NCBI GenBank assembly: GCA_003151975.1
Contig: PLZD01000031.1
Span: 78,488-142,487 of the forward strand
Direction: 5' to 3'
DNA from: Elusimicrobiota bacterium
GTDB lineage: Bacteria > Elusimicrobiota > Elusimicrobia > UBA1565 > UBA9628
Length of the DNA: 64,000 nucleotides
A program made the position numbers and the translations under genes. Shown here one piece after another: positions 40,863-59,667 of this stretch (position 1 is the first letter of the stretch; the number at the start of each line of letters is the position of its first letter). Under the pieces are notes generated by a model that saw only the letters and a list, made by a program, of their open reading frames with translations, was not told where the DNA came from and searched no databases.

Positions 40863-40891
40863 TTGATTCGACGGGCTCCGTTTGTTATTCT
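40863..40891 (+). promoter_or_regulatory. Promoter of the candidate RiPP operon
   Basis: TTGATT (40863-40868), 17-nt spacer, TATTCT (40886-40891), then 6 nt to the ATG of the PqqD-like gene. The message is predicted to start at the ATG. The next clear promoter on this strand is at 50542. Confidence 0.65.
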
Positions 40892-40897
40892 GTATTC

Positions 40898-41179
40898 ATG
40901 TCCCAGATCTATAGGAGAAACCCCGAGTTCGTCCAGCGCGAGGTGGCCGGAGAGTGCCTCCTCGTGCCCATCCGCCGCCAGCCGGGGGACTCCAACAGCA
41001 TTTTCGTCCTCAATGAGACCGCGGCCTCGCTGTGGCGCCGGCTCGACGGGACGCAGGCGCTGGCCGACATCGTCGACCAACTGCTTTCGGAGTACGCCGT
41101 GGAACGCGAGCAGCTTCAAAAAGACGTCGCCGTCCTCATCGATGACCTCCTCGGCATCAAGGCGATCTCCGCGGCTTAA
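40898..41179 (+). CDS. PqqD-like peptide-recognition protein
   Basis: A 93-aa PqqD-family protein: YRRNPEFVQREVAGECLLVP, then SNSIFVLNETAASLWRRLDG and LLSEYAVEREQLQKDVAVLI. Such proteins (RRE domains) bind the leader of a peptide substrate and present it to a modifying enzyme. No coding evidence lies upstream of the ATG at 40898, and a promoter ends 6 nt before it. It is the first gene of the cluster and lies 24 nt before the first radical SAM gene, the expected partner. Confidence 0.88.
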   Translation: MSQIYRRNPEFVQREVAGECLLVPIRRQPGDSNSIFVLNETAASLWRRLDGTQALADIVDQLLSEYAVEREQLQKDVAVLIDDLLGIKAISAA

Positions 41180-41203
41180 GCGCGCCCTCTCTTCGAGGGC
41201 GCC

Positions 41204-42103
41204 ATGATCGAAAAAACGCGCTTCGACCTCAAGCCGGACCGCTACCCTTTCTTCTGCCAGTGGGAGCTGACCTGCCGCTGCAACCTCCGGTGCGTGATGT
41301 GCTACACGGACTGCTTCAACGCCCCCGAGAAGCTGCGCCAAGAGCTCTCGACCGCCGAGGTCTTCCGCGTCATGGACGAACTGGCGGCGGCGGGGACGGC
41401 CGAGATACTATTCACGGGCGGCGAGGCGATGACGCGGCCGGATTTCTTCGCGATCCTCGAGCGCGCGCGCCGTATGGGCTTCGTGACGGACCTGTTCACC
41501 AACGGAACGCTGATCGACGAGGCCGCGGCCGACCGGCTCGCGGCGATCGCGCCGCACCGCGTCGAGATCTCCTTGCACGGCGTCACGAAAGGCGTTTTCG
41601 AGTCGGTGACGGCCGGAAAAGGCTCGTTTGAAAAATGCCTGAGGGGCATCCGCTTGCTGAGGGAGCGCGGCATACCGCTCGTGCTCAAGGCGACGGCCAT
41701 GACGCTCAACGAAGGCGAGGTCTTGTCGGTGAAGAAATACGCGGATGAGCTGGGCGTACCTTTCAAGCTCGGCGAGCGCATGCGCGCGACTTTGGAGGGC
41801 GAGGATTCTCCCTCGGCCTACGAGCTGCCGGAGGACCGCCGGTCCCGGCTGATCGCTTCCGATCCCGAGCTCAACAGCGAAGCCTGCGCCAAGCCCGCCC
41901 CCGGCGCCTGCCGAAGCGGTGAGACGACGTTTCACATCGACGCCTACGGAATGCTCCAGCTGTGTTCGGGCAACCGCGCCGACGGCTACGACCTGCGCGC
42001 GGGCTCTTTCCGGGAAGGATTTTACGAGCGCCTTCCAAAGTTCCGCTGCGCCCGCAAGACCGCGCCGCTGGTCCAGCTGAGCGTCCTGTCCAACCATGGC
42101 TGA
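41204..42103 (+). CDS. Radical SAM enzyme A with reduced SPASM region
   Basis: A 299-aa protein. The CxxxCxxC cluster site is at Cys26, Cys30 and Cys33 (CNLRCVMC) and is followed by the radical SAM pattern FTGGEAMTRPDF and TNGTLIDE. The C-terminal region keeps CAKPAPGACRSGETTFHIDA, LQLCSGN and FRCARK, like the start of a SPASM domain, but ends soon after without the final cysteine group. Other frames past the stop add no cysteines, so it is not an evident frameshift. It probably modifies the peptide at 43196-43384. Its stop overlaps the next gene by 8 nt. Confidence 0.88.
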   Translation: MIEKTRFDLKPDRYPFFCQWELTCRCNLRCVMCYTDCFNAPEKLRQELSTAEVFRVMDELAAAGTAEILFTGGEAMTRPDFFAILERARRMGFVTDLFTNGTLIDEAAADRLAAIAPHRVEISLHGVTKGVFESVTAGKGSFEKCLRGIRLLRERGIPLVLKATAMTLNEGEVLSVKKYADELGVPFKLGERMRATLEGEDSPSAYELPEDRRSRLIASDPELNSEACAKPAPGACRSGETTFHIDAYGMLQLCSGNRADGYDLRAGSFREGFYERLPKFRCARKTAPLVQLSVLSNHG

Positions 42104-43199
42104 GACCACCATCGAGAAGCGTCCGTATAAGGATTTCAGCCGCGGCGTCCACTCCGCGGGCAAAGTCGTTAAAGCCCAACTCGAGCTGACATACAAGTGC
42201 AACCTGCATTGCGTCCACTGCTACACCGACCCGTATAATTCCGCCGAGTACTTCCCGCGTGAACTTCAGACTTCCGAGATCAAGCGCATCATCGACGAGC
42301 TGGCCGACTACGGCGTGCTGTGGCTGAGCTTCAGCGGCGGCGAGGCCCTCAAACGCAAGGACTTCTTCGAGATCTACGACTACGCCTTCAAGAAAGGCTT
42401 CGTGCTCGTCATCTTCACCAACGGCACCTGCTTCACGCCGGCCGTCATCGAACGACTCAAGGCCCAGCCTCCTTTTTTCATCGATGTCTCGTGCCACTCG
42501 GTGCGCGAGGAAGCCTTCGACCGCTTCACGCAGGTCCCGGGATCGTTCCGAAAATTCATGGACGGCATGGAACTGCTGCGCCGCAGCGGGCTGCCGTTTC
42601 GCCTGAAGACCAAAGCGATGAACTGGAACAAGGACGAGATACCGGAAATCCGGAAGTATGTGCAGAGTTTCAATGTCGAATTCGGGTTCACGACCTCGCT
42701 GTCTCCCCGGCTCAACGGCGACGTCTCGTCCCTCGAGCACCGGCTCGCGCCGGCCGACATCAAGGAGCTGGAAACGCGCGAAGACATCTGGAAAAACGAC
42801 GAGGAGTCCTGCGCCGTCTCGCGCGGCAGGCTCGGCGCTCCATCCGACGCGCTCTACCGCTGCGGCTGCGGCACCGACACCGTCCACATCAGCGCCTGGG
42901 GGGAACTCGGGACCTGCACCCTGGAATACGAATCGCGCGCTTCCCTGCGGACATTTTCGGTGCGCGAAGCCGTCGAAAAAGTGTTTAATGAGATCAAGTC
43001 GCTCAGATTCTCGTCGGAGAGCGCCTGCGGGACGTGCGAGATCCACGGTTTTTGCGAGCGCTCGCCCACGGCCATCCGGCGCCAGACGGGCGACCGCGAA
43101 CAGCCGGACGCGTACCGCTGCGATGTGGCTCTGGACCGGGCCGAACGATTGACGAAAACGACGCTGGAACATCCGTTGGCCGCGAGGAGGAACTCATGA
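42096..43199 (+). CDS. Radical SAM/SPASM peptide-modifying enzyme B
   Basis: A 367-aa protein with Cys35, Cys39 and Cys42 (CNLHCVHC) for the radical SAM cluster, FSGGEALKRKDF and FTNGTCF. The C-terminal SPASM domain has RCGCGTDTVHISAWGELGTC, ACGTCEIHGFCER and YRCDVA, enough cysteines for auxiliary iron-sulfur clusters. SPASM enzymes commonly form thioether or C-C links in peptides. It directly precedes and overlaps by 4 nt the candidate precursor gene, the strongest hint of substrate. Confidence 0.92.
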   Translation: MAETTIEKRPYKDFSRGVHSAGKVVKAQLELTYKCNLHCVHCYTDPYNSAEYFPRELQTSEIKRIIDELADYGVLWLSFSGGEALKRKDFFEIYDYAFKKGFVLVIFTNGTCFTPAVIERLKAQPPFFIDVSCHSVREEAFDRFTQVPGSFRKFMDGMELLRRSGLPFRLKTKAMNWNKDEIPEIRKYVQSFNVEFGFTTSLSPRLNGDVSSLEHRLAPADIKELETREDIWKNDEESCAVSRGRLGAPSDALYRCGCGTDTVHISAWGELGTCTLEYESRASLRTFSVREAVEKVFNEIKSLRFSSESACGTCEIHGFCERSPTAIRRQTGDREQPDAYRCDVALDRAERLTKTTLEHPLAARRNS

Positions 43200-43384
43200 G
43201 CACCGAAAAGAAACCGTACCAGGCGCCCAAAATTTTCGAAGTCGAGCTCAATCAGGATCAGGCCATCCTGACCCTTTGCGAGACAGGCACGACGAGCACT
43301 GCGAACAACAAGAGCTCGGGCGGCTGCAACGGCGCCTGCAAGAAGTCGATGACCACGGGCGGCAGCGCGGCGCATCCCTCTTGA
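43196..43384 (+). CDS. Candidate RiPP precursor peptide
   Basis: A 62-aa peptide. The N-terminal part (MSTEKKPYQAPKIFEVELNQ) has the KPYxxPxI pattern I associate with leaders of radical-SAM-modified peptides. From Cys28 on, the peptide is rich in Cys (28, 44, 48), Thr, Ser, Gly and Asn and ends CNGACKKSMTTGGSAAHPS, a plausible core. A GAGGAGG ribosome-binding site lies before the ATG. It overlaps radical SAM gene B by 4 nt and the HprK-like gene by 4 nt. No cleavage site is certain. It could instead be a small metal-binding protein, but the neighbours argue against that. Confidence 0.82.
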   Translation: MSTEKKPYQAPKIFEVELNQDQAILTLCETGTTSTANNKSSGGCNGACKKSMTTGGSAAHPS

Positions 43385-44280
43385 TCCGACTCGAGATCGG
43401 GGGCTTCTTCATCTCGTTGGACGCGGGAGAGTCTCCCGTCGTCCGCTGGCCGCCGCAGAATTGCGGGCCGTTCATCGAATCGTCGGAGGGGGAGGCGGAC
43501 CTCCGATTCGCGGTCCGGCTCGTCAAGAACCTTCCGGAGCTGCGTCGGGGACGGCTCCTCCACGACGCGCGGGAAGGATTCTGGAAACTCTTCGAGATCG
43601 ACGGCGGCCTTCTGATCGAAAGCCTCGACCCCGCGACCATGCTCCCGTTCAATCTCGCGAAGGTCTCGAGCGATTTTTCGCGCGGCGAGATCTTCACTTC
43701 TGAAACGTCCCCCGGCGACTGGGACCCCAATCGCGTCATCAATCCCATCGTCGAGATTTGTTTACTGACCCATCTTTCCCGCAAGGGCGCCTTGATGTTC
43801 CACGCCGCCGGAATCGACTGGCGCGGCGCGGGATTCGTCTTCACGGGCCCTTCCGGCGCCGGGAAATCCACCTTGTCCGGCATGTTCTCGGAGCTCGGAG
43901 CCCTGCTGCTCAACGACGAGCGCGTCATCGTCTCCGACGTGACCGGCAGCCCCGTCGTCCACGGAACGCCCTGGTGCGGCTCCAATCCCGTGATGCACCA
44001 CGCGCACGCCCCTCTCCAAGGCCTCTACTTCATCCGCCACGGCGCCGACAACGCTTTCCGGAAGCTTCGCGCCGCTGAAGCCCTCTCGCTCTGCGTCAAG
44101 CAGGCCTTCCTGCCCTATTGGGACGAGCCCGGGATGACCGCGGTTTTGTCGAGCTCGGAAGCTCTTTTCCGCAAGGTCGAAGCGCTCGAGTATTCCTTCC
44201 TGCCGCATCCGAGCGCCGTCGATTCGATTCTCGCGCGGTCGGGGTCCCATGCAGAAGGTCTCCTCCAAAAAGTTTCTTAG
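43381..44280 (+). CDS. HPr kinase-like ATPase
   Basis: About 299 aa from a TTG start that overlaps the precursor stop (TTGA). The P-loop GPSGAGKSTLSG starts near residue 156 and LLLNDERVIVSD follows, as in HPr kinase/phosphorylase-like proteins of peptide clusters. The N-terminal 120 residues have no family I can name. Relatives in some lasso-peptide loci phosphorylate a Ser of the peptide; Ser/Thr are plentiful in the core here, so phosphorylation is a reasonable but unproven role. It overlaps radical SAM gene C by 32 nt. Confidence 0.82.
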   Translation: MIRLEIGGFFISLDAGESPVVRWPPQNCGPFIESSEGEADLRFAVRLVKNLPELRRGRLLHDAREGFWKLFEIDGGLLIESLDPATMLPFNLAKVSSDFSRGEIFTSETSPGDWDPNRVINPIVEICLLTHLSRKGALMFHAAGIDWRGAGFVFTGPSGAGKSTLSGMFSELGALLLNDERVIVSDVTGSPVVHGTPWCGSNPVMHHAHAPLQGLYFIRHGADNAFRKLRAAEALSLCVKQAFLPYWDEPGMTAVLSSSEALFRKVEALEYSFLPHPSAVDSILARSGSHAEGLLQKVS

Positions 44281-45307
44281 CGGTCTGGCCGCGGCCGGCC
44301 GAAAGCGCCGCCAGCCGCACTTCATCACCTTCGAGCTCAGCTACGGCTGCAACCTCACCTGCGCGCACTGCTTCAATCCCACTCACAAGGCCGGGCCGCG
44401 GGAGCTCGCGCTGCCGGAGATCTTCCGCGTCCTCGAGGAGTCGGCCGCGTTCGGGGTCTTCGATGTCTGCTTCACGGGCGGCGAGCCGTTCGCCCGGCGC
44501 GATTTCTTCGCCATTCTCGCGAAGGCGAAAAGCCTCGGGCTCTCGGTCTCGATCAACTCCAACGGGACTTTGATCGACGGAGACATCGCGCGGCGCCTGC
44601 GCGAGATCGGCATCCTGAAAATCTACCTCAGCCTGTACGGCTCCACGAAGGAAGTCTACGAGGCCGTGACGGGCATTGCCGGCTCGCACGCCCGCTTTCT
44701 TGCGGGGCTCGACGCGCTGCTCGCCGAGGAAATACCGCTCACGCTTCAAATGCCGATCATGAAGCTCAACCGCGCGAACGCCGCCGCGGCGCGCGCGTTC
44801 GCGCAAGCGCGCGAACTTGAATTTCTGACTTCCGTCGATATTTACGCGCGCCAGGACGGCGACCCCTCGCCTCTGCGCCAGCGTCTTTCGGCCGAGGAAA
44901 AACTCGAGCTGCTCCGCGAACTCGGCTCGGTGGCCTCTCCCGATCCCAGCGCCTGCGCCCGAGACGGCGCCTCATTCATCGACTGCGACTGCGGCAAGGT
45001 CCAGTTCGCGATCACGCCGTACGGCGAGATGAATCTCTGCACGATCTTTCCGACGCCGAAGTATGACCTCAAAAACGGCAGCGTCCGGGAAGGCTGGGAA
45101 GTCCTCAAGAAGACGGTCGATGAAGCGCGGCCCAACGCGAACTACGAATGCCCGTCGTGCGACCTGCGCTCGCATTGCCGCCAGAGCCGCGCGGACGCCT
45201 GGCAGGAGAAAGGGGACATGAGCGCCTGCCTGCCGCATTACAAAGACTTGGCGCGCCTGGAGAAGGAGGAAAATGCCCTCGCCGGACTCTCTCGAGATAT
45301 TCGCTGA
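44249..45307 (+). CDS. Radical SAM/SPASM peptide-modifying enzyme C
   Basis: A 352-aa protein. The cluster motif is Cys34, Cys38 and Cys41 (CNLTCAHC), followed by FTGGEPFARRDFF and SNGTLIDG. The SPASM domain reads FIDCDCGKVQFAITPYGEMN, LCTIF, YECPSCDLRSHCRQS and a final SACLPH. It is about as similar to enzymes A and B as they are to each other by eye, so a third modification step is likely. It overlaps its two neighbours by 32 and 35 nt. Confidence 0.92.
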   Translation: MQKVSSKKFLSGLAAAGRKRRQPHFITFELSYGCNLTCAHCFNPTHKAGPRELALPEIFRVLEESAAFGVFDVCFTGGEPFARRDFFAILAKAKSLGLSVSINSNGTLIDGDIARRLREIGILKIYLSLYGSTKEVYEAVTGIAGSHARFLAGLDALLAEEIPLTLQMPIMKLNRANAAAARAFAQARELEFLTSVDIYARQDGDPSPLRQRLSAEEKLELLRELGSVASPDPSACARDGASFIDCDCGKVQFAITPYGEMNLCTIFPTPKYDLKNGSVREGWEVLKKTVDEARPNANYECPSCDLRSHCRQSRADAWQEKGDMSACLPHYKDLARLEKEENALAGLSRDIR

Positions 45308-46229
45308 GAAATACGCGCTCGTGGGCGCGGCCAATAAGCGCTCGCTCGAGCGGCTAGCTCTCGTGCTCAAGGCCTTGGAGGCGCGCTCCATCGACTGCCT
45401 CCTGCTCAAGGGCGCCGACCTGCTGACGCGCGTGTACTCCGGCATGGGGCTGCGCCAAATCGGGGATTTCGATTTATTGGTCAAGGAAGCCGACCTGCCG
45501 CGCATCGACGAAGCGCTCTCCGCCCTCGGCTACCGCCAGCAGATCGACGGCAATCCCGCCTACGTCGACGCGGAAGGGGAATCTCAAGTCGATCTCGCCA
45601 CCGAGGTGTGGTATCTGAAGGACGAAGCGGAGATCTGGCGGCGCGCGGTTTCGCGCCCGGCGCTCGGCCTCACGGTTCGCGCGATGGATGCGACGGACGC
45701 TTTGCTGTTCATCTGCCTCTATGTCTGCCTGCACCGCGCCCGCTTCTCGGCCGGCTTCGCGCAGGACATTTTCTTGATGGCCAAAAACGAAACCATCAAT
45801 TGGGACCGGCTCACGACCTCGGCCGCGAATCTAGGACTCAAGGCGCCGTTATTCCACGCGCTCGGCTACGCGCTCTCCAAGCGCGCCGTGCCGATCCCGG
45901 GATCTGCGCTTTCGGCGCTGGCTCCCTCGACCTTCCGCGAGAGAGCGCAATTGTTCTTGCTGCGCCGGCTCGTCAAGGAGGACCGGTTCTTGGGCCTGAG
46001 CCATTTGCTGGTCTTGCTCTCGCGTCCGCGCGGCCGGCGACTCGCGTCGCTGCGCCGGTCCTTCTCACCGAGCCGCGAGTTCATGCGCTATCGCTACGGC
46101 GAGCGCTCGGGCGCGTCATTGACGATGATCCGCGCCGCGCGGCCGTTCTACCTCGCGGCGCAAGCCGCCGTCTTGTTGGCGCGCATACTAAAGAGAGTGC
46201 TGCTCCCCGCCCATGCGTCTGCGCGCTAG
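45273..46229 (+). CDS. NTP_transf_5-type nucleotidyltransferase family protein
   Basis: A 318-aa protein with the pattern of this family: LLLKGADLLTRVY, RQIGDFDLLV (the GDFDLL acidic pair in place of the catalytic GS...DxD region) and VDLATEVWYL. Members occur in RiPP clusters together with HprK-like and PqqD-like proteins; their reaction is not established. The C-terminal 100 residues are basic and end in a hydrophobic stretch (AAQAAVLLARILKRVLL), possibly membrane-associated. It overlaps the preceding gene by 35 nt and the next by 17 nt. Confidence 0.82.
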   Translation: MPSPDSLEIFAEKYALVGAANKRSLERLALVLKALEARSIDCLLLKGADLLTRVYSGMGLRQIGDFDLLVKEADLPRIDEALSALGYRQQIDGNPAYVDAEGESQVDLATEVWYLKDEAEIWRRAVSRPALGLTVRAMDATDALLFICLYVCLHRARFSAGFAQDIFLMAKNETINWDRLTTSAANLGLKAPLFHALGYALSKRAVPIPGSALSALAPSTFRERAQLFLLRRLVKEDRFLGLSHLLVLLSRPRGRRLASLRRSFSPSREFMRYRYGERSGASLTMIRAARPFYLAAQAAVLLARILKRVLLPAHASAR

Positions 46230-46971
46230 GCTGGTCCAGAAGGCCTTCGGCCTGAGCAAACTGCTCGAGACCGTTTTGCCGTGCGTCATGACGCCGGAGA
46301 CTCTCGCGGAGCTGAACCTGCGCTACTTCGCGCGGGACTCCAAGTTCTGGAGCGGCGAGGCCGCCGCCGGATTTTTCATCGAGGAGAAGCGCGTTCTCGA
46401 TGGGCTCGGCCTCAAGGGCGGCAAGGCGCTGTGCCTGGCCTGCGGCGGAGGACGCGAGGCCTTCGCTTTGGCCGAGCGCGGCTTCGATGTGCTGGGCGTC
46501 GAGCAAGTGCCCGAGCTCGTCGAGCACTGCCTTGAAGTCGCCGCCCAAAGAGAGAGCAAGATCCGCTTCCTGCAGTCCGACATGCGCGCGCTGACACTCG
46601 ACGAGAATGACTTCGACCTCATCACGATCATCAACGTCGCCTACAGTTGCGTGCCCTCGAAGAAGGCGCGGGTCGCGCTGCTGGCGGACTGCCGCCGACG
46701 GCTCGCCCCCGAGGGACGCTGCGTCGTCAGTTTCGCGGTCAGAGCGCCGGCCGAGGCGGAGCTTGCGCGCCGCGCCCTTCTGACCGCGCTGAGCCGCGTC
46801 GCGGGGAACCCCGAGCGCGAGATCGGAGACCGCCTGCTCGGCGAGGGCAATTTCGTCCACTTCTTTCCTTCCATGGAAGCCGCGGGCGACGAGGCACGAG
46901 CCGCGGGCTTTACAAGGGTCGAGCTCCACAAAGGGGAGAGCGTCACGTCTTACTTCGCGGCGGCGCCATGA
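46213..46971 (+). CDS. SAM-dependent methyltransferase 1 of the peptide cluster
   Basis: A 252-aa class I methyltransferase. The SAM-binding loop is ALCLACGGGREAFALAERG, then VLGVEQVPE, FLQSDMRAL and a post-core helix LADCRRRLAPEGRCVVSF. It is clearly paralogous to the first half of the following protein (CLGSGGGREAFALARLG, GVEQVGE, LAPGGRCVLSF), so the two arose by tandem duplication. The substrate may be the peptide or a sugar. It overlaps the next gene by 4 nt. Confidence 0.88.
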   Translation: MRLRARLVQKAFGLSKLLETVLPCVMTPETLAELNLRYFARDSKFWSGEAAAGFFIEEKRVLDGLGLKGGKALCLACGGGREAFALAERGFDVLGVEQVPELVEHCLEVAAQRESKIRFLQSDMRALTLDENDFDLITIINVAYSCVPSKKARVALLADCRRRLAPEGRCVVSFAVRAPAEAELARRALLTALSRVAGNPEREIGDRLLGEGNFVHFFPSMEAAGDEARAAGFTRVELHKGESVTSYFAAAP

Positions 46972-48434
46972 ATATGCGCGCGCGCGCCGCTCTCGGTCTT
47001 CTCCGCTGGGCCTACCGGCTCGAGGAGGGCTTGGCCGCGTTCGTCGATCCGGAGAGCCTTCTCGAGTTCAACCGGTCTTCCTACCCGAGCGAGGCGGCGC
47101 AGTGGATCAAGCGCGCCGATGACGGACTCGACGCCGCCGAGACCGCCTTGATGGAGCGTTTGAACATTTCCTCGGGCCGCGCGCTGTGCCTCGGCTCGGG
47201 CGGCGGACGCGAGGCCTTCGCGCTGGCCCGCCTCGGCTGCGAAGTCGTCGGCGTCGAGCAAGTCGGCGAGATGGCCGCATTCAGCCGCGAGCACGCCCGC
47301 GCCCGCGGCCTCAGCGCGTCGTTCGTCGAGGGCGACATGACCCGCTGCGAGGTCGAGGGGAAATTCGAGCACGTCTTCCTCATGAATCTCGTCTACAGCC
47401 TCGTGCCCACGCGCCGCAAGCGCGTCGAACTGCTCCAACGCTGCGCGCGCAGTCTTGCGCCGGGCGGCCGCTGCGTGCTCAGCTTCTCCGTCAAGCCGCC
47501 GACCGACACGGAGCGAAAATGGTTCCCCATCTCAAAGACCGTCGCCATTCTCTGCGGAAACCCCGGCTTTGAGATCGGCGACCGCCTCGACTCGACGCCG
47601 ATCTATTTCCGCTATTTCCCGTCGCCCGAGGTCGTGGCCGACGAGGCGCGCGAAGCGGGGTTCGCCCGGGTCGAATTATTCTCGCCGACGGCGAACGATC
47701 ATTTCGCCGTGCTCGGCGCCCGCGCCGAGTCAGAAAGGATTTCTCCTCTGGACGGGCGAGGCACGCTGCCAATGTCGGCCTTGCCCGCGGAGTTCGCGCT
47801 CGCGGCGGCGGGAACGCTGACGGCGTCGGGGTGGAGCATGCACCCGGCGATCTCCAAGGGAGATCGGCTGACGGTCGTCTGCGCCCCCACGGTCGCGCAG
47901 GGGGACATCGTCGTGTTCCGGCAAGACGGCGCGCTGATTTGCCACCGCGTCAAGCACGTGCTGCCCGGCGGCGCCGTCGTCACGCAAGGAGACAACTCGG
48001 CGACGGAGGACCCGGCAGTCGCCGCCTCGGACATTCTCGGGAAGGTGGCCGCGGTGGGACGCCGTCGCCGCTTGATCCCCGCCCGTCTTGCGATGCCCTT
48101 TGAAGGCATCGGACGCGGCCTTCGCGCGCGCTGCATAGGTGCTGCGGGCAGCGTCATGCGGCTGCCCATCGCCCGCACGGCGGCCTCGGCGCTCCTGCCG
48201 CGCTTTTGCCGCTACTACGCCGCCGAGCGCGCGCCTGTGAAGCTTTTCGCGGCATATTCATTCGTGGAGCTTCGGCCGGGCGAGAAGGCCAAGCGGGGCT
48301 CCATGCTGGTCGCCAAGCTCTTCGGCCTAACCGTGGCCACCCTGGAACCGGCCGCTGGCCTGACCGACGCGCATCCCGCGCTGAAAGGACTCGGAATCGA
48401 GGAGACGCTCGCCCGATGGGCGCCCTCGCGATAA
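46968..48434 (+). CDS. Methyltransferase fused to an S26B-type signal peptidase domain
   Basis: A 488-aa fusion. Residues about 1-255 are a class I methyltransferase paralogous to the upstream gene (ALCLGSGGGREAFALARLG). Residues about 278-370 match the SipW/ER-type signal peptidase fold: GWSMHPAISKGDRLTVV (Ser nucleophile), QGDIVVFRQDG, then ICHRVKHV with His where LepB uses Lys, and TQGDNSATEDP and DILGKV. About 115 residues of no known family follow. No obvious membrane anchor precedes the peptidase. The fusion is one intact frame, so a combined modifying and leader-cutting enzyme is conceivable. Confidence 0.85.
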   Translation: MNMRARAALGLLRWAYRLEEGLAAFVDPESLLEFNRSSYPSEAAQWIKRADDGLDAAETALMERLNISSGRALCLGSGGGREAFALARLGCEVVGVEQVGEMAAFSREHARARGLSASFVEGDMTRCEVEGKFEHVFLMNLVYSLVPTRRKRVELLQRCARSLAPGGRCVLSFSVKPPTDTERKWFPISKTVAILCGNPGFEIGDRLDSTPIYFRYFPSPEVVADEAREAGFARVELFSPTANDHFAVLGARAESERISPLDGRGTLPMSALPAEFALAAAGTLTASGWSMHPAISKGDRLTVVCAPTVAQGDIVVFRQDGALICHRVKHVLPGGAVVTQGDNSATEDPAVAASDILGKVAAVGRRRRLIPARLAMPFEGIGRGLRARCIGAAGSVMRLPIARTAASALLPRFCRYYAAERAPVKLFAAYSFVELRPGEKAKRGSMLVAKLFGLTVATLEPAAGLTDAHPALKGLGIEETLARWAPSR

Positions 48435-50518
48435 AGCCGAAGGCCAAGGACTCCATAGCTCCGCTCTGGAGCTGGCTGCTGCTCTATGTGGCGGTCCGGT
48501 TTATCGTGCTCGCCTTCATCAGACCCGCGCAAATGTTTCCGTACAGCACGGAGGAACTCTATCAGGGAACGATCGGCAAGCTGCTGATCGATCGCCTCGG
48601 GTTTCCTTTGCTCTCCTATCGCCCCAACGACTATCTCGGCGGACCGCTCGTCGTCGGCGTCATGGCCTCGCTTTTCTTCCGCCTGCTGGGCCCAACGGCA
48701 ATCGCGCTCAAGCTCGTGCCGCTGACGATCTTCGGCGCGGCCTTGGCCGTCTGGCACCTGATGCTCAAGCGCTTCTTCAGCCCGCGCGTGGCCGCGATCT
48801 TCTCGCTGCTCTACATCTTTTCGCCTCCGAATTTCACGATGTACACGATCAGCGCCATGGGCTTTCATCCCGAGACGATCCTGTTCACGGGCCTGACTCT
48901 CTGGCTGCTGCTGCTTCTGCTTTCCGACGGCCGCAAGGCTCATCTTTATATCCCGGCCATCGGGCTCACAGCTGGTTTCGCGACTTGGTTCAGCTACTAT
49001 TATGCGCTCACCTTGGCGGCGTGCGCCGTTTATTGGCTATGGAGCGAGCGCCGCGTGCCCTCCAAGCGCGAGGCCGGGCTCTTCTGCGCCGGCTTCCTCG
49101 TCGGCTTCACGCCTTGGCTGGTCTCGAATATCGGCCCCGGCTCGATCCGCGGCTGGATGATCTACGATCTTTCCGTCTGGCAGATCTTCGATCCGACGGC
49201 GCCGTATCATTCGTTCTCGCTGTTCTTACTCGCAGGCTCCTTCGGCGCCGAGAACGGCCCCGACTTCGCCAAGAAGGCCACCGACATCAGCTACACCGCG
49301 AGTCTCGCGCTCATCCTGATCGTGGGCGGCGTGCACTCTTTCCGCGCGATCAAGTGGCGCAAGCCCAGGCCCGAGTTTCTCATCGCGATCTACTTGCTCA
49401 TATTCTTCGTCGCCGTCGAGGCCAGCCTGCGGCAGGCGCCCCGGTACAACATTCCGGGCTTTCCCTTCTTGTTCGTGCTCGTCGCGCTGGCGATCGAATC
49501 CTTTGAACACGAGAGATCGGGGATCCTTAAAAAGATCTCTCCTTTCCTCACTCCTTGCCTCATAGCCCTGTCGCCGCTCTTCACCATACCCTTACTGTCG
49601 ACGCGGCACATCGGCGAGATATTTTCGATGAAAGGCTACGCCTACGGCGGCGCGCCGTACCCGCTGTGCCTCAGGACGGACACCTGCCGGGATTACCTCG
49701 CGGCCCTGCTGCCCCGCGCAACCCACGAAGAGCGCTTTCAAGCCGCGGCAAGCGCCGCGGCGAGCATGGAAAACGACATCGCGACGGCCTACCCCTATGG
49801 CGCGATGCCGCCGCAGCTGCGCGCGCTGGCGTCGACTCAAATCCCGCTGGTCCGCCATCAGCTATTCTACGCCTTCGGCGAAGACCTCAACGGCTACCGG
49901 AAATGGGCGCTGCCGAAGGCCATGCCGCGGCTGGTACCGAGCGAGAGGGACTTCTTCGTGTGGGGCGTTTTCAACGACGGGCTCGGCGACGCGGATCCGA
50001 CGCTCGGGACCTACCGGCGCCTGCTGGCGCAGGAGCCGCAGATTCCGCCCGAGGGCCGCGAATGTTTTTGGCGCGCGGCCGGCAACCGCTTCGCTCGATA
50101 TTGGTTCGGCGTCGATCCTTCAGCCGCGCGATTAGGCCGCAGTGTCCTGCGCGAGTTCACGATCAGGCGCTGGCCCGCCTCGCGCCGCAAAATGTTCGCG
50201 CAGGGCGTCGGCGGCTGGCTTTTCTTGGCGTGGAACAACTCCGGCGACGAGCCGACATTCGACGTCGGGCGCCTCGAGGAGCTTCCGGATTCGCTGAGGG
50301 CCGACGCGTTGTTTGGGGCGGGCATGCAGTCGATCCTCGACCAGCCCATCGAGGACCCTTTCGTTCTGGCGCGACGGCGGGGGGAATTCCTGCGGGCCTT
50401 GAGCCCGGAAGACGCTCGCGCTTTCGACGCAGGCCGGCGCTGGGTCTTCGAGCGCTTCGAAAGGGAGGATGGGGCCGCTTCTTCGCGCCTTCCCTCAAAA
50501 ATGGTATCTATTAAATGA
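48416..50518 (+). CDS. GT39-like polytopic membrane protein
   Basis: A 700-aa protein. The N-terminal 420 residues hold about ten hydrophobic helices (WSWLLLYVAVRFIVLAFI at the start), in the style of GT39/ArnT-like lipid-linked sugar transferases; the first loop carries acidic residues (STEELYQG, RPNDYLGG). The last 280 residues are a soluble domain of no family I recognise, ending in a basic VSIK. It overlaps the previous gene by 19 nt, so it belongs to the peptide operon. It may glycosylate or anchor the product, or belong functionally to the polysaccharide locus that follows. Confidence 0.75.
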   Translation: MGALAIKPKAKDSIAPLWSWLLLYVAVRFIVLAFIRPAQMFPYSTEELYQGTIGKLLIDRLGFPLLSYRPNDYLGGPLVVGVMASLFFRLLGPTAIALKLVPLTIFGAALAVWHLMLKRFFSPRVAAIFSLLYIFSPPNFTMYTISAMGFHPETILFTGLTLWLLLLLLSDGRKAHLYIPAIGLTAGFATWFSYYYALTLAACAVYWLWSERRVPSKREAGLFCAGFLVGFTPWLVSNIGPGSIRGWMIYDLSVWQIFDPTAPYHSFSLFLLAGSFGAENGPDFAKKATDISYTASLALILIVGGVHSFRAIKWRKPRPEFLIAIYLLIFFVAVEASLRQAPRYNIPGFPFLFVLVALAIESFEHERSGILKKISPFLTPCLIALSPLFTIPLLSTRHIGEIFSMKGYAYGGAPYPLCLRTDTCRDYLAALLPRATHEERFQAAASAAASMENDIATAYPYGAMPPQLRALASTQIPLVRHQLFYAFGEDLNGYRKWALPKAMPRLVPSERDFFVWGVFNDGLGDADPTLGTYRRLLAQEPQIPPEGRECFWRAAGNRFARYWFGVDPSAARLGRSVLREFTIRRWPASRRKMFAQGVGGWLFLAWNNSGDEPTFDVGRLEELPDSLRADALFGAGMQSILDQPIEDPFVLARRRGEFLRALSPEDARAFDAGRRWVFERFEREDGAASSRLPSKMVSIK

Positions 50519-50541: not shown

Positions 50542-50570
50542 TTGACAATGGACGCGCTTGACCCTAAACT
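50542..50570 (+). promoter_or_regulatory. Promoter of the polysaccharide export operon
   Basis: TTGACA (50542-50547), 17-nt spacer, TAAACT (50565-50570). The leader is about 15 nt and carries AAGGGAG 3 nt before the ATG at 50591. Unlike many promoters here, this one yields a leadered message. Confidence 0.85.
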
Positions 50571-50590: not shown

Positions 50591-51325
50591 ATGAAGCTTA
50601 ATAGAATATTCCTGCTTTCCGTCTTCTGTTCCGGGATCCTCGACATAGGATTGGCGCCCGCGGCTTGGTCCCAGGCCTCGTCCGCCATGGGGTCGTCATC
50701 CTCCGCGTCGAAGTCCGCCGCGAGCGAGACCGGCATCGAGATGGCGCAGAATCCGCAGATTCAGTCCGGCGACGTCGTTTCCATCATCGTCTACCCGGCC
50801 GACGAGTACAACCGCGAGGTCACCGTCCAGCCCGACGGCAAGATCGAGCTTCCGTTGGTCGGTTCCTTCGCGGTCGGCGGCCTCACGGCGAAGGAACTCG
50901 GCAAACTCCTAGAGAGCAAGTACTCGCGCTACGTGGACAACCCCAAGGTCACCGTGGCCACGCGCCATTTCGCGGGCCGGCGCATCGCGATCATCGGCGA
51001 GATCCGCCAGCCGGGCTTCTACGAGTATCGCGACGGCATGAAGATGCTCGAGCTCATCGCGCACGCGGGCGGCCTGACCGACACGGCCAAAGCCAGCCGC
51101 ACGAGCGTGATGCGGCAAGGCGCCGCCCAGGCCTTCAGGTTTAATTTTCAGGCGGTCCTCGACGGCAACCTCGATCGCGACATCGCGCTTCTTCCGGGCG
51201 ACACGATCTTCGTTCCGAAAACGGGCTTGGCGAGGAGATCGACTTGGCTGACCAACAACATCATCCCGTGGCTGTCTTTCATCACGGCCGCGGCGACGTT
51301 GGTCCTCCTGGCGAAGACAAATTGA
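50591..51325 (+). CDS. Polysaccharide export protein (Wza-like)
   Basis: A 244-aa protein with a signal peptide (MKLNRIFLLSVFCSGILDIG), no lipobox in the usual place, a polysaccharide biosynthesis/export domain (residues about 55-135; SGDVVSIIVYPADEYNREVT, QPDGKIELPLVG) and a SLBB domain (RIAIIGEIRQPGFYEYRDGM). The C-terminus has a hydrophobic segment (LSFITAAATLVLLA) of the kind seen in export proteins ending in a membrane helix. It would form or gate the outer-membrane exit of the polysaccharide. It is followed by its usual partner, the Wzc-like kinase, at 20 nt. Confidence 0.9.
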   Translation: MKLNRIFLLSVFCSGILDIGLAPAAWSQASSAMGSSSSASKSAASETGIEMAQNPQIQSGDVVSIIVYPADEYNREVTVQPDGKIELPLVGSFAVGGLTAKELGKLLESKYSRYVDNPKVTVATRHFAGRRIAIIGEIRQPGFYEYRDGMKMLELIAHAGGLTDTAKASRTSVMRQGAAQAFRFNFQAVLDGNLDRDIALLPGDTIFVPKTGLARRSTWLTNNIIPWLSFITAAATLVLLAKTN

Positions 51326-51345
51326 GATGACGCGCGGAGAAGACC

Positions 51346-53193
51346 TTGGAAGCTGAACTCAGCCTTCACGACTACTGGCGCATCATCAAGAAGCGCCAGT
51401 GGGGCGGCCTCACTGTCTTCGCCGCGACCTTCTTGTCGACGCTTTTCTACACGCGCCTGCAGACGCCGCTCTACCGCGCCGCGGCCTCGGTTTCGTTCCA
51501 GCCGCCCTCGAACAAGATGCTCGGCTCGGGCTCCTACGACGTCGCCTCGATCATGCAGTCCGAGTTGCGCATGCTCGATTCCGAGGACATGAATGCCCGC
51601 GTCGCCAAAAGGATGAATATTCCGCAGGATAAGCTGCCCGGCTCGGTGGCCGCCGGCTCCGGCGAGGGCTCCAACATCATCAGCCTCACGGCGACCGGGA
51701 CCGACCGCTTAGCCGTCGCGGATCTCGCCAACGCTTTCGCCGACGTCTTCGTCGAGGCCGACCTCGAGGAGCGCTCGCGCCAGAGCCGGACCACTTTACG
51801 CGACATCGAATCGCGCCGGGCCGAGGTCGAAAAATCCCTGCGCGACCTCGAGGACGCGAAGAAAGAGTTCATGCAGCGGAACCCGCTGGTGGCCCAAGGC
51901 GGCGCGCTCGCCTCTTCCTTGTCGGACCTCGAGATGCAGCGCAAGGAGCTCTCCAAGAAATACACGCCCGAGCACCCGGACATGATCAAGCTCGACGAGC
52001 GGATCGCGACGACCAACGCCAAGCTCTCGCAGATGACGGGCCAGGAGACCGAGCTCGAGCGCATGACGCGCGACATCAAGGTCAACGAGGAGACTTACCT
52101 GACCCTCTCGCGCGATAACGAGGAAGCCAAGCTCGCCGTGTCTTCGGAAGTTCCGTGGGTGACCATCCTCTCGCGCGCGTCGACTCCGTCGGCGCCCTAT
52201 TTCCCCAACAAGCACGTCAACTACCTCATCGGCGCGGCCCTGGGCATATTTCTGGCCGTGATGTTCGCCTTCGTGCTCGAGAACCTCGACATCTCGCTGT
52301 CTACGATCGAGGAGATCGAGCGCCTGCTCGGCGTTCCGGTGCTGGGCATGATTCCGCACTTCGGAGGCGAGGGCCGCTGGAAGGAGCTGCGCGCCACGCT
52401 CATGCGCCAACAGCGCTACCCCATGGAGGTGTTTCGGTCTCAACTCGTGTTTCAATATCGGCCGAAATCACCGAGCATCGAGGTCTACCACAGCCTGCGC
52501 GCCAACATCCAGAACAAGCTGACCCGCAAGGACAACATGGTCCTGACTTTCACCTCCTCCGGCGTCGCGGAAGGGAAATCGCTGACTTCGTTGAATTTCT
52601 GCCTGGCCGCGGCGCAGGCGGGCCTCAAGACGCTCTTCGTCGAAACCGACGTGCGCCAGCCGCTTGCGCACAAGGCGTTCGGGCTGCCCAAGAGCCCCGG
52701 CCTCGTCGAGGTTTTGACCGGCAAGATGACCGCCGACGAGGTCATCCACGGCACGTCCGACTTCATCGTCGGAGGCTACGATTCCGACAAGCTGATCTCG
52801 TTCTCGGGCATCGACAACTTCAAGCTGATGACGGGCTGGGCCCAGAGCGGCTCGGACGTCGTCCACATCCTCTCCTCGGCCGCGCTGCCCAAGATGATCG
52901 CGGAGCTGCGCCCTCAGTACGACATCATCGTCTTCGACTGCCCGCCCGTGCTCCTGTTCGTCGACGCCTTGCTCGTCGGCGCCCGCACGGACGGAGTCGT
53001 GATGATCTATAAGGCCGGGAAGATCGCGCGCCGTGCGCTCAAGCGCGCCAAGGACCAGATCGTCGCCGCCAAGGGGAACATCATCGGCGTCGTCCTCAAC
53101 GACATGCGCTCCACCGACATGGAGCCGCGCTACGGCTATTACTACGACTACGAGCACTACGCCAAGACCGAGGATCAACCCGGCAAGGCATGA
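51346..53193 (+). CDS. Wzc-like polysaccharide co-polymerase / tyrosine autokinase
   Basis: About 615 aa from a TTG start preceded by GGAGA. Two membrane segments (near residues 25-45 and 290-315) flank a periplasmic coiled coil with GNVR-type features. The cytosolic kinase has a deviant P-loop SSGVAEGKSLTSLN, a second acidic motif FVETDVRQP and IIVFDCPPVLL. The C-terminus carries a tyrosine cluster (YGYYYDYEHYAK), the usual autophosphorylation site of bacterial tyrosine kinases. It controls chain length and export of surface polysaccharide. It overlaps the next gene by 4 nt. Confidence 0.92.
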   Translation: MEAELSLHDYWRIIKKRQWGGLTVFAATFLSTLFYTRLQTPLYRAAASVSFQPPSNKMLGSGSYDVASIMQSELRMLDSEDMNARVAKRMNIPQDKLPGSVAAGSGEGSNIISLTATGTDRLAVADLANAFADVFVEADLEERSRQSRTTLRDIESRRAEVEKSLRDLEDAKKEFMQRNPLVAQGGALASSLSDLEMQRKELSKKYTPEHPDMIKLDERIATTNAKLSQMTGQETELERMTRDIKVNEETYLTLSRDNEEAKLAVSSEVPWVTILSRASTPSAPYFPNKHVNYLIGAALGIFLAVMFAFVLENLDISLSTIEEIERLLGVPVLGMIPHFGGEGRWKELRATLMRQQRYPMEVFRSQLVFQYRPKSPSIEVYHSLRANIQNKLTRKDNMVLTFTSSGVAEGKSLTSLNFCLAAAQAGLKTLFVETDVRQPLAHKAFGLPKSPGLVEVLTGKMTADEVIHGTSDFIVGGYDSDKLISFSGIDNFKLMTGWAQSGSDVVHILSSAALPKMIAELRPQYDIIVFDCPPVLLFVDALLVGARTDGVVMIYKAGKIARRALKRAKDQIVAAKGNIIGVVLNDMRSTDMEPRYGYYYDYEHYAKTEDQPGKA

Positions 53194-54629
53194 GCTCGAG
53201 CCAGGAAACCCGGGACGCCGTCCAGTTCTGGGTTTTGATCTTCGCCACGGCCATCGGCTGCGTCTACGTCGGGCGCTCCGTCGTCACTTCCTATGACCCG
53301 ATAAGACTTCTCCTGATGATGGCGGGCGTCGGCGTCGCGATCGGAACTTTCGCCAAGCCTAAGTTCGCCATGATCCTGGTCGTCTTCTCCATGATCTTCT
53401 CGCCGCGCATCCAAGGGGCGGGTGCTGCGATCTTCAAGGCCAACGATTTGCTGCTCTTCCTGATCTTGATCGCGTGGATGACGCGCACGGCGATTTTCAA
53501 AGGCACCGCCTTCCTCGTGACGACGCCCTTAAACTTCCCGATCATCATCTTCAGCGCCGTCTGCATCGTGGCGACCGCGCTCGGCATGCTCACGGGAACG
53601 GTGCGCACCGAACTGCGTCCGATCTTCTACTTGGTCAAGTACCTCGAGTACTTTCTGCTCTACTTCATGACCGTCAACACGATCGATACCCGCGAGGACG
53701 CCCGGCGCTTCATGCGCTACGGCTGGATCACGGCGGTGCTAGTGACCGTCTTCGCTTATACGCAGGTCGCCTCCGGCCAGCGCGTCACGGCGCCCTTCGA
53801 CAACGTGATCGGCTCCGCCACCGATTCGACAGGACAAAGCGAGCCCAACACCTTCGGCGGCTACTATGTGGTGGTCTTCGGCCTGCTGCTGGGCTACTTC
53901 ACGCAAACCGAGGGCACCACGCCGCTGCTCATGATCGGCTCGCTGCTGTTCATGTTGACCCCGTTTCTCTTGACGCAGTCGCGCGCGTCGTATCTCGGCT
54001 TTCTAGCCGCCATGATATTCCACATTTTCGCCACTCGAAGGCGGCAAATCTTCCTGATCTTGGGAATGGGCGCGGGGGTCTTCCTCGTGATGCTGGTCCC
54101 GAAGCTGCGCGATACCGTGGTCCAGCGCGTCGAGTACACCTTCGGCAAGTACGGCGACGTCGCGGGCACCGTCGCGGTCGGAGACGAGCAGGTCAAGATC
54201 GAGGGCTCGACGATGGCGCGCATACAGGGCTGGCAAAGAGTCTTCACCGACCGGCTTCCCCGGCGCCCCTTCCTGGGCTACGGCGTGACGGGCGTGGGCC
54301 TCTGCGACGCGTACTACCCGCGCATCGCGGGCGAGACCGGCCTCATCGGGCTGCTGTGCTTTCTCTGGCTCATGTCCCGGATCTGGCGCTGCGCCTGGGG
54401 GCTCTTCCGCATCACGGACCAGCCCGAGGAGAAGGCTTTGGCTCTGGGAATGTTGACGGCTCTGGTGGGCCTGATGGCCCACGCCGTCGGGGCGAACACC
54501 TTCATCCTCGTGCGCGTCATGGAGCCCTTTTGGTTTGCGACCGCGCTGATGGCGCGGCTCTTACTTGAGGCCGAACGCGAGCAAGAGGCTGCGCCCTCCA
54601 ACGCTCCGGTCGCCGCGCCCATCGCCTGA
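53190..54629 (+). CDS. Wzy-like O-antigen ligase / polymerase family protein
   Basis: A 479-aa membrane protein with about ten hydrophobic helices and one large periplasmic loop (about residues 285-360), as in Wzy/WaaL proteins. The loop is followed by FLGYGVTGVGLCDAYYPRIA, resembling the family's HNxxL-type region only loosely. It probably polymerises repeat units delivered by the flippase at 59728. Position between a Wzc-like kinase and glycosyltransferases supports Wzy over a lipid A ligase. Confidence 0.88.
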   Translation: MSSSQETRDAVQFWVLIFATAIGCVYVGRSVVTSYDPIRLLLMMAGVGVAIGTFAKPKFAMILVVFSMIFSPRIQGAGAAIFKANDLLLFLILIAWMTRTAIFKGTAFLVTTPLNFPIIIFSAVCIVATALGMLTGTVRTELRPIFYLVKYLEYFLLYFMTVNTIDTREDARRFMRYGWITAVLVTVFAYTQVASGQRVTAPFDNVIGSATDSTGQSEPNTFGGYYVVVFGLLLGYFTQTEGTTPLLMIGSLLFMLTPFLLTQSRASYLGFLAAMIFHIFATRRRQIFLILGMGAGVFLVMLVPKLRDTVVQRVEYTFGKYGDVAGTVAVGDEQVKIEGSTMARIQGWQRVFTDRLPRRPFLGYGVTGVGLCDAYYPRIAGETGLIGLLCFLWLMSRIWRCAWGLFRITDQPEEKALALGMLTALVGLMAHAVGANTFILVRVMEPFWFATALMARLLLEAEREQEAAPSNAPVAAPIA

Positions 54630-54630
54630 C

Positions 54631-55665
54631 ATGAAAGTCCTGTTCTCGGGCTACAAGAATCCTCATTTCATGGCCGTGACCGACTACATCGAGATCGGTC
54701 TCAAAGAGATGGGCCATGAGGTCCATTTCTTCGACTATCGGAGCTATCTCCTGCCCGGGCGCATCAGGGACCGCGTCCCGGCGCTCGAGCGGTGGGACCT
54801 GCGTCGGCTCAACGGAAGCTTGCGCGAGCGGGCGCGGGCATTGAAGCCCGACCTCTTCCTCGTGGCCGGCGGCCACACGATCGAGCCCGAAACAATCCAG
54901 GCCGCGAAGTCAGCCGGAGCGACGACCGCGCTTTGGACCGCGGACTATCCCCACCTCATCGATATTTATATTAAGCTGGCGCCGCACTACGACCGGTGCT
55001 TCGTCAGCGGCAGCGACGCGCTGTCCGATCACCGCGCCGCCGGAAACGAACGGACCCAGGTCCTGCCCTTCGGGTGCCTGCCCGACCTTCACAAGCCCAT
55101 GACGCTTGATGCAGGCGATAAGGCCCGATTCTCTTGCGACGTCTTTTTCGCCGGCACCGCGTACCCGGACCGCGTGACGGCCTTGGAGGCCATCGCGGAA
55201 ATCGGCGGCCTCGAGCTCGCGATCTGGGGGCCTTGCTGGGAAGACCTGGCTCCGGGGCATCCGCTCAAGCGCTTCGTGCGCGGGGGACCGTTGAACTCGA
55301 TCGATTACGTCAAGGCGGCATCGGCCTGCAAGATCGCCTTCAACCACATCGGCGGTTTCGGCCACATGGAAAACCGGGCACGGATTCGAATGGCGAACAG
55401 CCGGCTCTACGAGCTCTTGGGCTGCGGCGCCTGCCAGCTCGTCGACGCCAAGGAAGACGTCGTCGACGCGTTCCCATCGGGGCGGGAGCTCGTCTGGTTT
55501 AAGGATCGCGACGACATGCTGCGGCTCGTCCGCCTTTATCTCGGCGATGATAAGGAGCGTGCGGCCATCGGCCGGCGGGCGCGCGAAAGCGCGGTGGCGG
55601 TGCACACCTATCGCCTCAGGCTGACGGCGCTTATCGCCGCCTGCGGTCTATCGGGGCGGTCGTGA
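54631..55665 (+). CDS. CgeB-like glycosyltransferase
   Basis: A 344-aa protein. The N-terminal Rossmann-like half starts MKVLFSGYKNPHFMAVTDYI, and the C-terminal half has the YELLGCGACQLVDAKEDVVD pattern of CgeB/DUF3880-type glycosyltransferases. It is a GT-B fold cytosolic enzyme of unknown sugar specificity. It begins 1 nt after the polymerase stop (ATG at 54631) and overlaps the next glycosyltransferase gene by 4 nt. Confidence 0.82.
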   Translation: MKVLFSGYKNPHFMAVTDYIEIGLKEMGHEVHFFDYRSYLLPGRIRDRVPALERWDLRRLNGSLRERARALKPDLFLVAGGHTIEPETIQAAKSAGATTALWTADYPHLIDIYIKLAPHYDRCFVSGSDALSDHRAAGNERTQVLPFGCLPDLHKPMTLDAGDKARFSCDVFFAGTAYPDRVTALEAIAEIGGLELAIWGPCWEDLAPGHPLKRFVRGGPLNSIDYVKAASACKIAFNHIGGFGHMENRARIRMANSRLYELLGCGACQLVDAKEDVVDAFPSGRELVWFKDRDDMLRLVRLYLGDDKERAAIGRRARESAVAVHTYRLRLTALIAACGLSGRS

Positions 55666-56744
55666 AGACCGTCCTTTACACCACACCCTTCGCCGACATT
55701 TTCGGCGGCGGGCAGGAAAGCCTGCTCGTCCTGCTCGGCGCGCTCGATCGCGCCAAGTACCGGCCCCTGCTCGCGGTCCCGGCCGAGGGGGAGGTCGCGC
55801 GGCGCGCGCGCGAGCTCGGCTGCGAGGTCCGCGTCCTCGATCTGCCGGCGGTCCGCTCGGGGCTTTCCGCGGTCAAGGCGTGCCTCGCATTTCGACGGCT
55901 GCTGCAATCGGACGGCGTCGATCTCATTCACACCGACGGCCCACGCTCGACTTTTTACGCGGTTTGGGCCCGGGGCGGCCTCGCGATCCCGCTGGTCTGG
56001 CACATCCGCAACGACGAGAAGGACGGCCTGCTCGACCGCTACCTCGAGGGCCGGGTCGACCGCATCATCCTCGTCGCGAAAGTCCTCGAGGCGCGCTTTT
56101 CCAAACGCACCCGGGCGCGCTGCGTCGCGATCCACAACGGCATCGACCTCTCCGCGATCAAACACGAAACGCCTGAAGGCCTGCCGCCGCATCAGCCGCC
56201 GCTTCTCGTCTGCCCCGGGCGCCTCGACGGCGGCCACAAGGGCCAGGACGTCCTGCTGGAGGCGCTGCCGCGCGTGCGCGAGCGCGCCAACGCTTCGGTT
56301 TGGTTTATCGGCGACGAGCAAAAGGATTACGGCCTCAAGCTCCGAGCCCGCGCCAAGGCGCTCGGGCTTTCGGACTGCGTGCATTTCCTCGGCTTCCGCA
56401 AGGACGCGCGCGCGCTGATGGCGCTTTGCGATGTCGTCGTCCTGCCGAGCCTGCACGAAGGCTTCCCGCGCGTCCTGCTCGAGGCGATGGCCGAGGGCAA
56501 GCCCGTCGTGGCCTCGAAAGTCGGCGGAATACCGGAACTCGTGGAAGACGGAGAGACCGGGTTTCTCGTGCCTCCGTCGGATCCGCAGTCGCTGGCCGCG
56601 GCGCTGCGCGAGATTCTGAGCGCCCCGTCCCTCATGAAGCGGATGGGCGAGGCGGGGCGGGTACGCGTCGCGGGCTTCTCATCTCAGGCGATGGCGCGCG
56701 CCGTCGAGCGGGTCTACGAAGAGGCGCTTGCCGCTATTTCGTGA
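55662..56744 (+). CDS. GT4-family glycosyltransferase
   Basis: A 360-aa GT-B enzyme. N-terminal acceptor domain (TTPFADIFGGGQESLLVLLG); C-terminal donor domain with the glycosyltransferase group 1 signature LHEGFPRVLLEAMAEGKPVV (Glu pair) and GGHKGQDVLLEALPRV. GTG start in a GTGA overlap. It builds the repeat unit on the cytosolic face. It converges with the methyltransferase gene on the other strand, overlapping it by 11 nt. Confidence 0.93.
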   Translation: MKTVLYTTPFADIFGGGQESLLVLLGALDRAKYRPLLAVPAEGEVARRARELGCEVRVLDLPAVRSGLSAVKACLAFRRLLQSDGVDLIHTDGPRSTFYAVWARGGLAIPLVWHIRNDEKDGLLDRYLEGRVDRIILVAKVLEARFSKRTRARCVAIHNGIDLSAIKHETPEGLPPHQPPLLVCPGRLDGGHKGQDVLLEALPRVRERANASVWFIGDEQKDYGLKLRARAKALGLSDCVHFLGFRKDARALMALCDVVVLPSLHEGFPRVLLEAMAEGKPVVASKVGGIPELVEDGETGFLVPPSDPQSLAAALREILSAPSLMKRMGEAGRVRVAGFSSQAMARAVERVYEEALAAIS

Positions 56745-57240
56745 GGACCGCGTCGATCTCGACGGCGGGGAACATCCTCAGCGGGCTCTGCTCGTAAACG
56801 TTGGGGAAAAGGTTGAAGAGCGGCTCGAGCGCGATGTTCCAGAACGAAAGCGTTTTCCCGAAGGTCAGATGCACGCGGCACGAAGAAAACTTGAAATCGA
56901 AATAGCCGCACTCGCGCGCGTAATAAAAAAAGGTGCCGTGCGCGAAGAAATGGCGGTGCGTCGGATCGGCGTAGGCGAACTGCCAGGTGAAGTGGGGGAC
57001 CAGCGCGTGAAGCACGCCGCCGGGCTTGAGGATGCGGTGGATCTCCTTCATCGCGCGGTTGCGGTCGGCGAGATGCTCGAGGCAGTGGGAGATGTAGACC
57101 TCGTCAGCGCAATCCGACTCGAAGGGCCACGGATAGGCGTCGAGATCGTGCACCACGGAGACCTTCGGGGACTTCGGGTTGCTGTCGACGTTGACGTAGC
57201 CCTCGCGGGGCTGTCCGCCCGAACCCAAGTTGATCTTCAT
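56734..57240 (-). CDS. Small SAM-dependent methyltransferase
   Basis: A 168-aa protein like the type 11/12 methyltransferases of polysaccharide loci: KINLGSGGQPREGYVNVDSN (SAM loop), SHCLEHLADR and EIHRILKPGGVLHALVPHF, then HRHFFAHGTFF. A promoter TTGAAA-17-CATACT ends 8 nt before the ATG. Its divergent neighbour is the membrane transferase at 57300. It may methylate a sugar or lipid-linked intermediate. Confidence 0.85.
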   Translation of the reverse strand: MKINLGSGGQPREGYVNVDSNPKSPKVSVVHDLDAYPWPFESDCADEVYISHCLEHLADRNRAMKEIHRILKPGGVLHALVPHFTWQFAYADPTHRHFFAHGTFFYYARECGYFDFKFSSCRVHLTFGKTLSFWNIALEPLFNLFPNVYEQSPLRMFPAVEIDAVLTK

Positions 57241-57248
57241 CGTCGAAC

Positions 57249-57288: not shown

Positions 57289-57299
57289 ACGAGCCCTTC

Positions 57300-59662: not shown

Positions 59663-59667
59663 GAGGC

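Follow-up and report, generated by a model that had tools for sequence, protein, structure and literature searches.

An Elusimicrobiota operon with three radical SAM enzymes and a predicted C-terminal serine kinase, a probable representative of peptide loci found in several phyla

A ten-gene operon on the forward strand of a 64,000-nucleotide stretch of an Elusimicrobiota genome (assembly GCA_003151975.1, contig PLZD01000031.1; hereafter the window) is, judging from its gene content and relatives, almost certainly a biosynthetic locus for a ribosomally synthesized and post-translationally modified peptide (RiPP). The operon encodes a PqqD-like protein (D), three radical S-adenosylmethionine (SAM) enzymes (A, B and C), a 62-amino-acid peptide, a kinase-like protein (K), a nucleotidyltransferase (N), two methyltransferases (M1 and M2) and a membrane protein (G). 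Across phyla, a precursor with a conserved leader lies beside D, radical SAM enzymes and K. We infer a peptide product that is crosslinked by the radical SAM enzymes and bears phospho- or phosphoglycosyl-serine at its C-terminus, and we regard this reading as a whole as fairly likely.

The 62-amino-acid open reading frame is, on comparison with its homologs, a genuine precursor, and it accompanies the enzymes from locus to locus; it is more than a chance frame because homologous peptides sit in many related loci. Its GC content at third codon positions is 0.81, and its codon-position GC pattern is like that of the neighbouring genes. Thirteen aligned precursors have Y8, P11, L18 and L25 in common, together with C28, C44 and C48. 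When a profile built from the leaders alone was run over 341 genomes of the phylum of the window, strong matches were confined to six genomes, the same ones that have the closest B homologs. A seventh, weak match (genome G071, locus L113) had none of the enzymes beside it and was taken as chance. In the Omnitrophota, leader matches were found in 49 of 334 genomes, very many of them in some. Two Omnitrophota genomes (G601 and G555; loci L147, L148 and L152) gave 108 and 70 precursor candidates at first look, 24 of which were scored and matched in each; one K homolog was found per genome despite these large expansions, which looks like one maturation machinery serving many substrates. No Pfam or NCBIfam model matches the precursor family, so it will probably escape mining tools built on known families. 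The window's own genome (G000) has arrays of adjacent radical SAM genes without the precursor leader on contigs C27 (L168) and C57 (L169); in the stretches read of its radical SAM arrays outside the operon, on contigs C17, C27 and C57, no leader-bearing peptide was present. A 24,224-amino-acid open frame near other radical SAM genes (G000:C17:63528) is an artefact of a masked run of N.

Related loci were gathered by searching genome contigs with enzyme B. They keep the enzyme set, sometimes rearranged, and most also have a small open reading frame with the same leader; they occur in metagenome-assembled genomes (MAGs) of Nitrospirae, Omnitrophota, Acidobacteria, 'Deltaproteobacteria' and ANGP1. 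When radical SAM proteins of the closer loci were placed in a tree, A, B and C fell into three separate clades, in each of which the window protein groups with L009 and L018 or L149; B is 60% identical to its L009 counterpart. By this phylogenetic evidence, the three enzymes are co-inherited as a set. The core common to the loci consists of D, K, the peptide and one or more radical SAM enzymes. The order A-B-peptide-K-C-N is repeated in L149, a smaller version in L153 consists of D, a single radical SAM enzyme, the peptide, K, S26 and N, and a larger one in L144 has five radical SAM genes in a run. Homologs of D are present in nearly all related loci. Among 23 focal loci compared for gene content, several of them cut by contig ends, an S26-like domain was present in 17 and N in 15, and K was more constant than the methyltransferases or N.

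The peptide gene lies between B and K in the window, L009, L013 and L149. The preliminary description, drawn from the sequence of the window, had proposed a RiPP operon and had held that relatives keeping the enzymes with no peptide gene between B and the HprK-like gene would speak against it. Such loci do occur, with the peptide gene placed after K in L012 and after C in L014 and L016, but each of them still contains the peptide, and the RiPP conclusion holds, supported by a precursor that travels with the enzymes. Alternatively, the genes could be part of the neighbouring exopolysaccharide cluster, with the small frame incidental, as export genes and glycosyltransferases come directly after the operon (window 50591-63076: Wza-like, Wzc-like, polymerase/ligase-like, glycosyltransferase and flippase-like genes). 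However, peptide and enzymes co-occur in many genomes with no fixed polysaccharide neighbour, and a consensus promoter (50542-50570) precedes the Wza-like gene, so that the polysaccharide genes look separate. We consider this alternative highly improbable.

The account of the locus given in the preliminary description holds, but the most informative feature, a near-invariant C-terminal Ser, was missed there. The leader-only search, which makes no use of the C-terminus, was run over all fetched loci and returned 67 distinct frames; the last residue is Ser in 60, Thr in 3, Gly in 2, Gln in 1 and Asp in 1, counts that include related sequences, with the focal peptides coming from several phyla and having different final tripeptides. 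The background for a terminal Ser in the same DNA is 7.9-10.8%. Three of the four frames ending in neither Ser nor Thr are truncated or away from the enzymes, which leaves one true exception (L144). Measured from the last Cys, the C-terminus lies 2 to 63 residues away, and the position before the terminal Ser is unconstrained (Ser, Pro, Gly, Thr, Ala and others); the end itself is thus what is conserved.

Ser-ending peptides were also seen elsewhere. In the class of the window, a second conserved system (L097-L103, with K matches in L073-L096) has a short peptide, '..ETAALACGKC..SQLACKTLKKFS', that also ends in Ser, a diverged K and one radical SAM enzyme, and in several loci it adjoins prepilin-like genes, an Rrf2-like regulator and a very large gene. 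Peptides ending in ..LFNS lie upstream of K, a radical SAM enzyme and PqqD in MAGs of Oscillospiraceae, Roseburia and other Clostridia (L022, L023, L025-L027, L029 and L033), and appear to be a further kinase-linked family with a C-terminal Ser.

HprK and PEPCK have a common kinase fold. The AlphaFold model of K (predicted local distance difference test score, pLDDT, 90.8) can be superposed on PEPCK along most of its length (Z 14.3, root-mean-square deviation 4.8, 240 aligned residues) and also matches HprK. The HprK-like call of the preliminary description is thus borne out by fold and weak by sequence: against the curated HprK-related kinase A and B models, K reaches 42.8 (HprK_rel_B) and 28.4 bits, below the 200-bit cut-off. 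The catalytic His, the P-loop Lys and Asp-(Asp/Glu) are retained across K homologs, and in N the residues D65 and D67 are invariant. Lasso clusters, as two reviews describe, include an HPr kinase homolog with the catalytic signature His-Lys-Asp-Asp (PMC9266682) that places a phosphate on the precursor's C-terminal Ser, largely whatever the remaining sequence (PMC9266682; PMC8498205), and the nucleotidyltransferase of the pseudomycoidin cluster puts one or two hexoses on the Ser phosphate (PMC8498205). K has the fold and, with Glu as the second Asp, the signature of this module, and the precursor ends in Ser62. By analogy, K and N look like the same module as in lasso clusters, acting here on a radical SAM peptide.

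It is also possible that the product is a RiPP on which K acts elsewhere, on a Ser or Thr of the core or on a regulator, and that the C-terminal Ser is kept for another enzyme, such as a methyltransferase or N working at the C-terminus. Ser and Thr abound in the core, the operon encodes methyltransferases, and the likeness of K to the known lasso kinases was judged by fold and motif. Against this, the last residue is the sole fixed hydroxyl residue of the precursors, with exceptions to Ser that are mostly Thr, the characterised relatives of K act on a C-terminal Ser (PMC9266682; PMC8498205), and K is the more constant partner in the loci. We therefore hold such a role of K to be unlikely, and phosphorylation of the C-terminal Ser to be probable on sequence and analogy.

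The best solved-structure match of A, B and C is SkfB, a sactipeptide maturase, with PqqE also near; the AlphaFold model of A was moderate (pLDDT 72) and was not used. Curated models for sactipeptide and ranthipeptide maturases, which cover some maturases only, gave scores below cut-off (best StsB 103/625 and PapB 50/340 bits). A Cys-containing core beside SPASM enzymes is the usual sign of a thioether peptide, and together with the SkfB match this leads us to lean towards thioether crosslinks in the core. The three Cys might instead bind metal or form disulfides, with the radical SAM enzymes making C-C bonds or epimers and the product being metal-binding or cofactor-like. In keeping with this, the radical SAM/SPASM relatives include PqqE and the mycofactocin maturase, which are not thioether makers, and loci with a single radical SAM enzyme (L153 and L071) retain all three Cys, so that enzyme number does not track Cys number; the notion of one enzyme per cysteine was dropped for the same reason. 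Weighed against the SkfB match and the Cys-containing core, this alternative seems rather unlikely.

The preferred pathway to a crosslinked, C-terminally phosphorylated peptide would begin with D, which would bind the conserved leader and deliver the precursor to A, B and C. These radical SAM enzymes would modify a core of about 35 residues, most likely by forming thioether crosslinks from the three conserved Cys. K would phosphorylate the hydroxyl of Ser62, and N, like its counterparts in lasso clusters, might then attach a sugar to the phosphate, a step to which we give even chances by analogy. M1, M2 and G would contribute further tailoring. For removal of the leader, the likeliest protease is the S26-type Ser-His domain of M2, to which we give about even chances of carrying out this step.

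Several observations weigh against this pathway. The true precursor in L144 ends in Gly beside an intact K gene, and the precursors of genome G518 end in Ser with no K found there, in a genome that may be incomplete. N is missing from some loci. The catalytic Asp-Asp of K reads Asp-Glu in the window, where homologs have Asp or Glu. The best NCBIfam matches of the radical SAM enzymes are a mixture of haem, PQQ, mycofactocin and sactipeptide enzymes, none of them above cut-off, and radical SAM families of such kind form several bond types.

On recomputation from the sequence, the ten-gene operon was confirmed (Table 1), and the spacing given in the preliminary description, a first gap of 24 nt followed by overlaps of 8, 4, 4, 32, 35, 17, 4 and 19 nt, was reproduced exactly. 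Pfam bears out its domain calls (PqqD, three Radical_SAM, NTP_transf_5, two Methyltransf_25, Peptidase_S24/S26 and PMT_2). The promoter placed at 40863-40891 is unsupported, as a consensus scan gives none there on the forward strand; by eye, about 8 of 12 consensus bases are present, and since the element ends 6 nt before the ATG, a transcript from there would be leaderless.

Table 1. Features of the operon (positions in the window)
Feature	Position	Strand	Basis
D: PqqD-like leader-binding protein, 93 aa	40898..41179	+	Pfam PqqD 63.7 bits, cut-off 23.4
A: radical SAM enzyme, 299 aa, CxxxCxxC at residue 26	41204..42103	+	Pfam Radical_SAM; own clade
B: radical SAM enzyme, full SPASM cysteine set, 367 aa	42096..43199	+	Pfam; own clade
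AGGAGG ribosome-binding site of precursor gene	43185..43190	+	sequence, five bases before ATG
Precursor of 62 aa with leader MSTEKKPYQAPKIFEVELNQDQAILTL; core region contains C28, C44 and C48 and ends in Ser62	43196..43384	+	homologs, conserved leader and Cys
K: HprK/PEPCK-fold kinase, TTG start, His140, P-loop Lys, NDER	43381..44280	+	fold, catalytic residues
C: radical SAM enzyme with SPASM cysteines, 352 aa	44249..45307	+	Pfam; own clade
N: NTP_transf_5 nucleotidyltransferase, DxD at residues 65/67	45273..46229	+	Pfam 95.5 bits
M1: SAM-dependent methyltransferase	46213..46971	+	Pfam Methyltransf_25
M2: methyltransferase fused to S24/S26 peptidase domain, Ser (GWSMHP) and His (CHRV)	46968..48434	+	Pfam
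G: GT39-like (PMT_2) membrane protein, 700 aa, about nine hydrophobic segments	48416..50518	+	PMT_2 exactly at cut-off

The SPASM domain of A is partial only (Cys 236, 254 and 282). M1 is 39% identical to the methyltransferase part of M2. No membrane segment was predicted in M2, and in relatives stand-alone S26-like homologs of its peptidase part adjoin the peptide gene. G may decorate the peptide or belong with the downstream polysaccharide genes; its homologs in other peptide loci (L013, L071, L106 and L150) favour the peptide role. No transporter lies within the operon, and some relatives carry an ABC transporter. A UPF0489-TPR protein, which the window lacks, lies beside D in L011, L012, L016, L018, L062-L065, L149 and L150. 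We take it to have an arginase-like fold and to be a relative of the peptide arginases that convert Arg to ornithine. In loci with a detected UPF0489-TPR motif the cores contain 15% Arg compared with 4%, a difference uncontrolled for relatedness and GC content and obtained with a motif search that missed some members; the core of the window precursor has zero Arg.

By sequence and curated cut-offs, the operon is neither a lasso cluster nor a GeoRSP or SynChlorMet system. The lasso clusters of paeninodin (PadeK/ThcoK) and pseudomycoidin (K, N) have in common with it a PqqD-like protein, an HPr-kinase homolog, a nucleotidyltransferase and a conserved C-terminal Ser (PMC9266682; PMC8498205). However, the Asn-synthetase-like cyclase and the transglutaminase-like B2 protease are absent, as the preliminary description had said (neither domain was found by Pfam in the ten genes), and radical SAM enzymes and a three-Cys core are present instead. 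GeoRSP likewise combines a PqqD-like protein with a radical SAM/SPASM enzyme, but the operon scores 29.5 and 103 bits (the latter for C) where the cut-offs are 100 and 400. Radical SAM/SPASM enzymes and a Cys-containing precursor are shared with the sactipeptides and ranthipeptides (SkfB, AlbA, StsB and PapB maturases), from which the operon differs in missing the curated maturase models, in its added kinase and nucleotidyltransferase, and in that its thioethers are predicted.

The statement that no described class has this combination was a little strong, because SynChlorMet (NCBIfam ScmC, HprK-related; ScmD, PqqD-like; ScmE and ScmF, radical SAM/SPASM) has the same backbone. Yet the operon scores far below its cut-offs (ScmC 25/125, ScmD 30.5/100, ScmE up to 84/400, ScmF up to 66/400), and, in a comparison made without the precursor, it has three radical SAM enzymes rather than two and N, M1, M2 and G in addition. 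A search for a true SynChlorMet locus to compare found none. In the open-access literature, nothing was found on SynChlorMet or on HprK with radical SAM and RiPP, and no description of the known modules in this combination was found, a search limited to open-access papers that leaves absence unproven.

Tentatively, and with slightly less than even confidence, we propose that these loci constitute an undescribed RiPP class spanning several phyla, in which crosslinked Cys peptides would be given a C-terminal phospho- or phosphoglycosyl-Ser by an HprK/PEPCK-fold kinase and its NTP_transf_5 partner, with a single kinase acting on tens of precursors in some Omnitrophota genomes. HprK-like proteins are repeatedly found next to radical SAM peptide enzymes, and the sources within reach assign the former no substrate; the near-invariant terminal Ser provides a specific prediction for their role. 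If this is true, C-terminal Ser phosphorylation would reach beyond lasso peptides to a wider class in several mostly uncultured phyla, and two kinds of peptide chemistry, radical crosslinking and C-terminal phosphorylation, would be joined.

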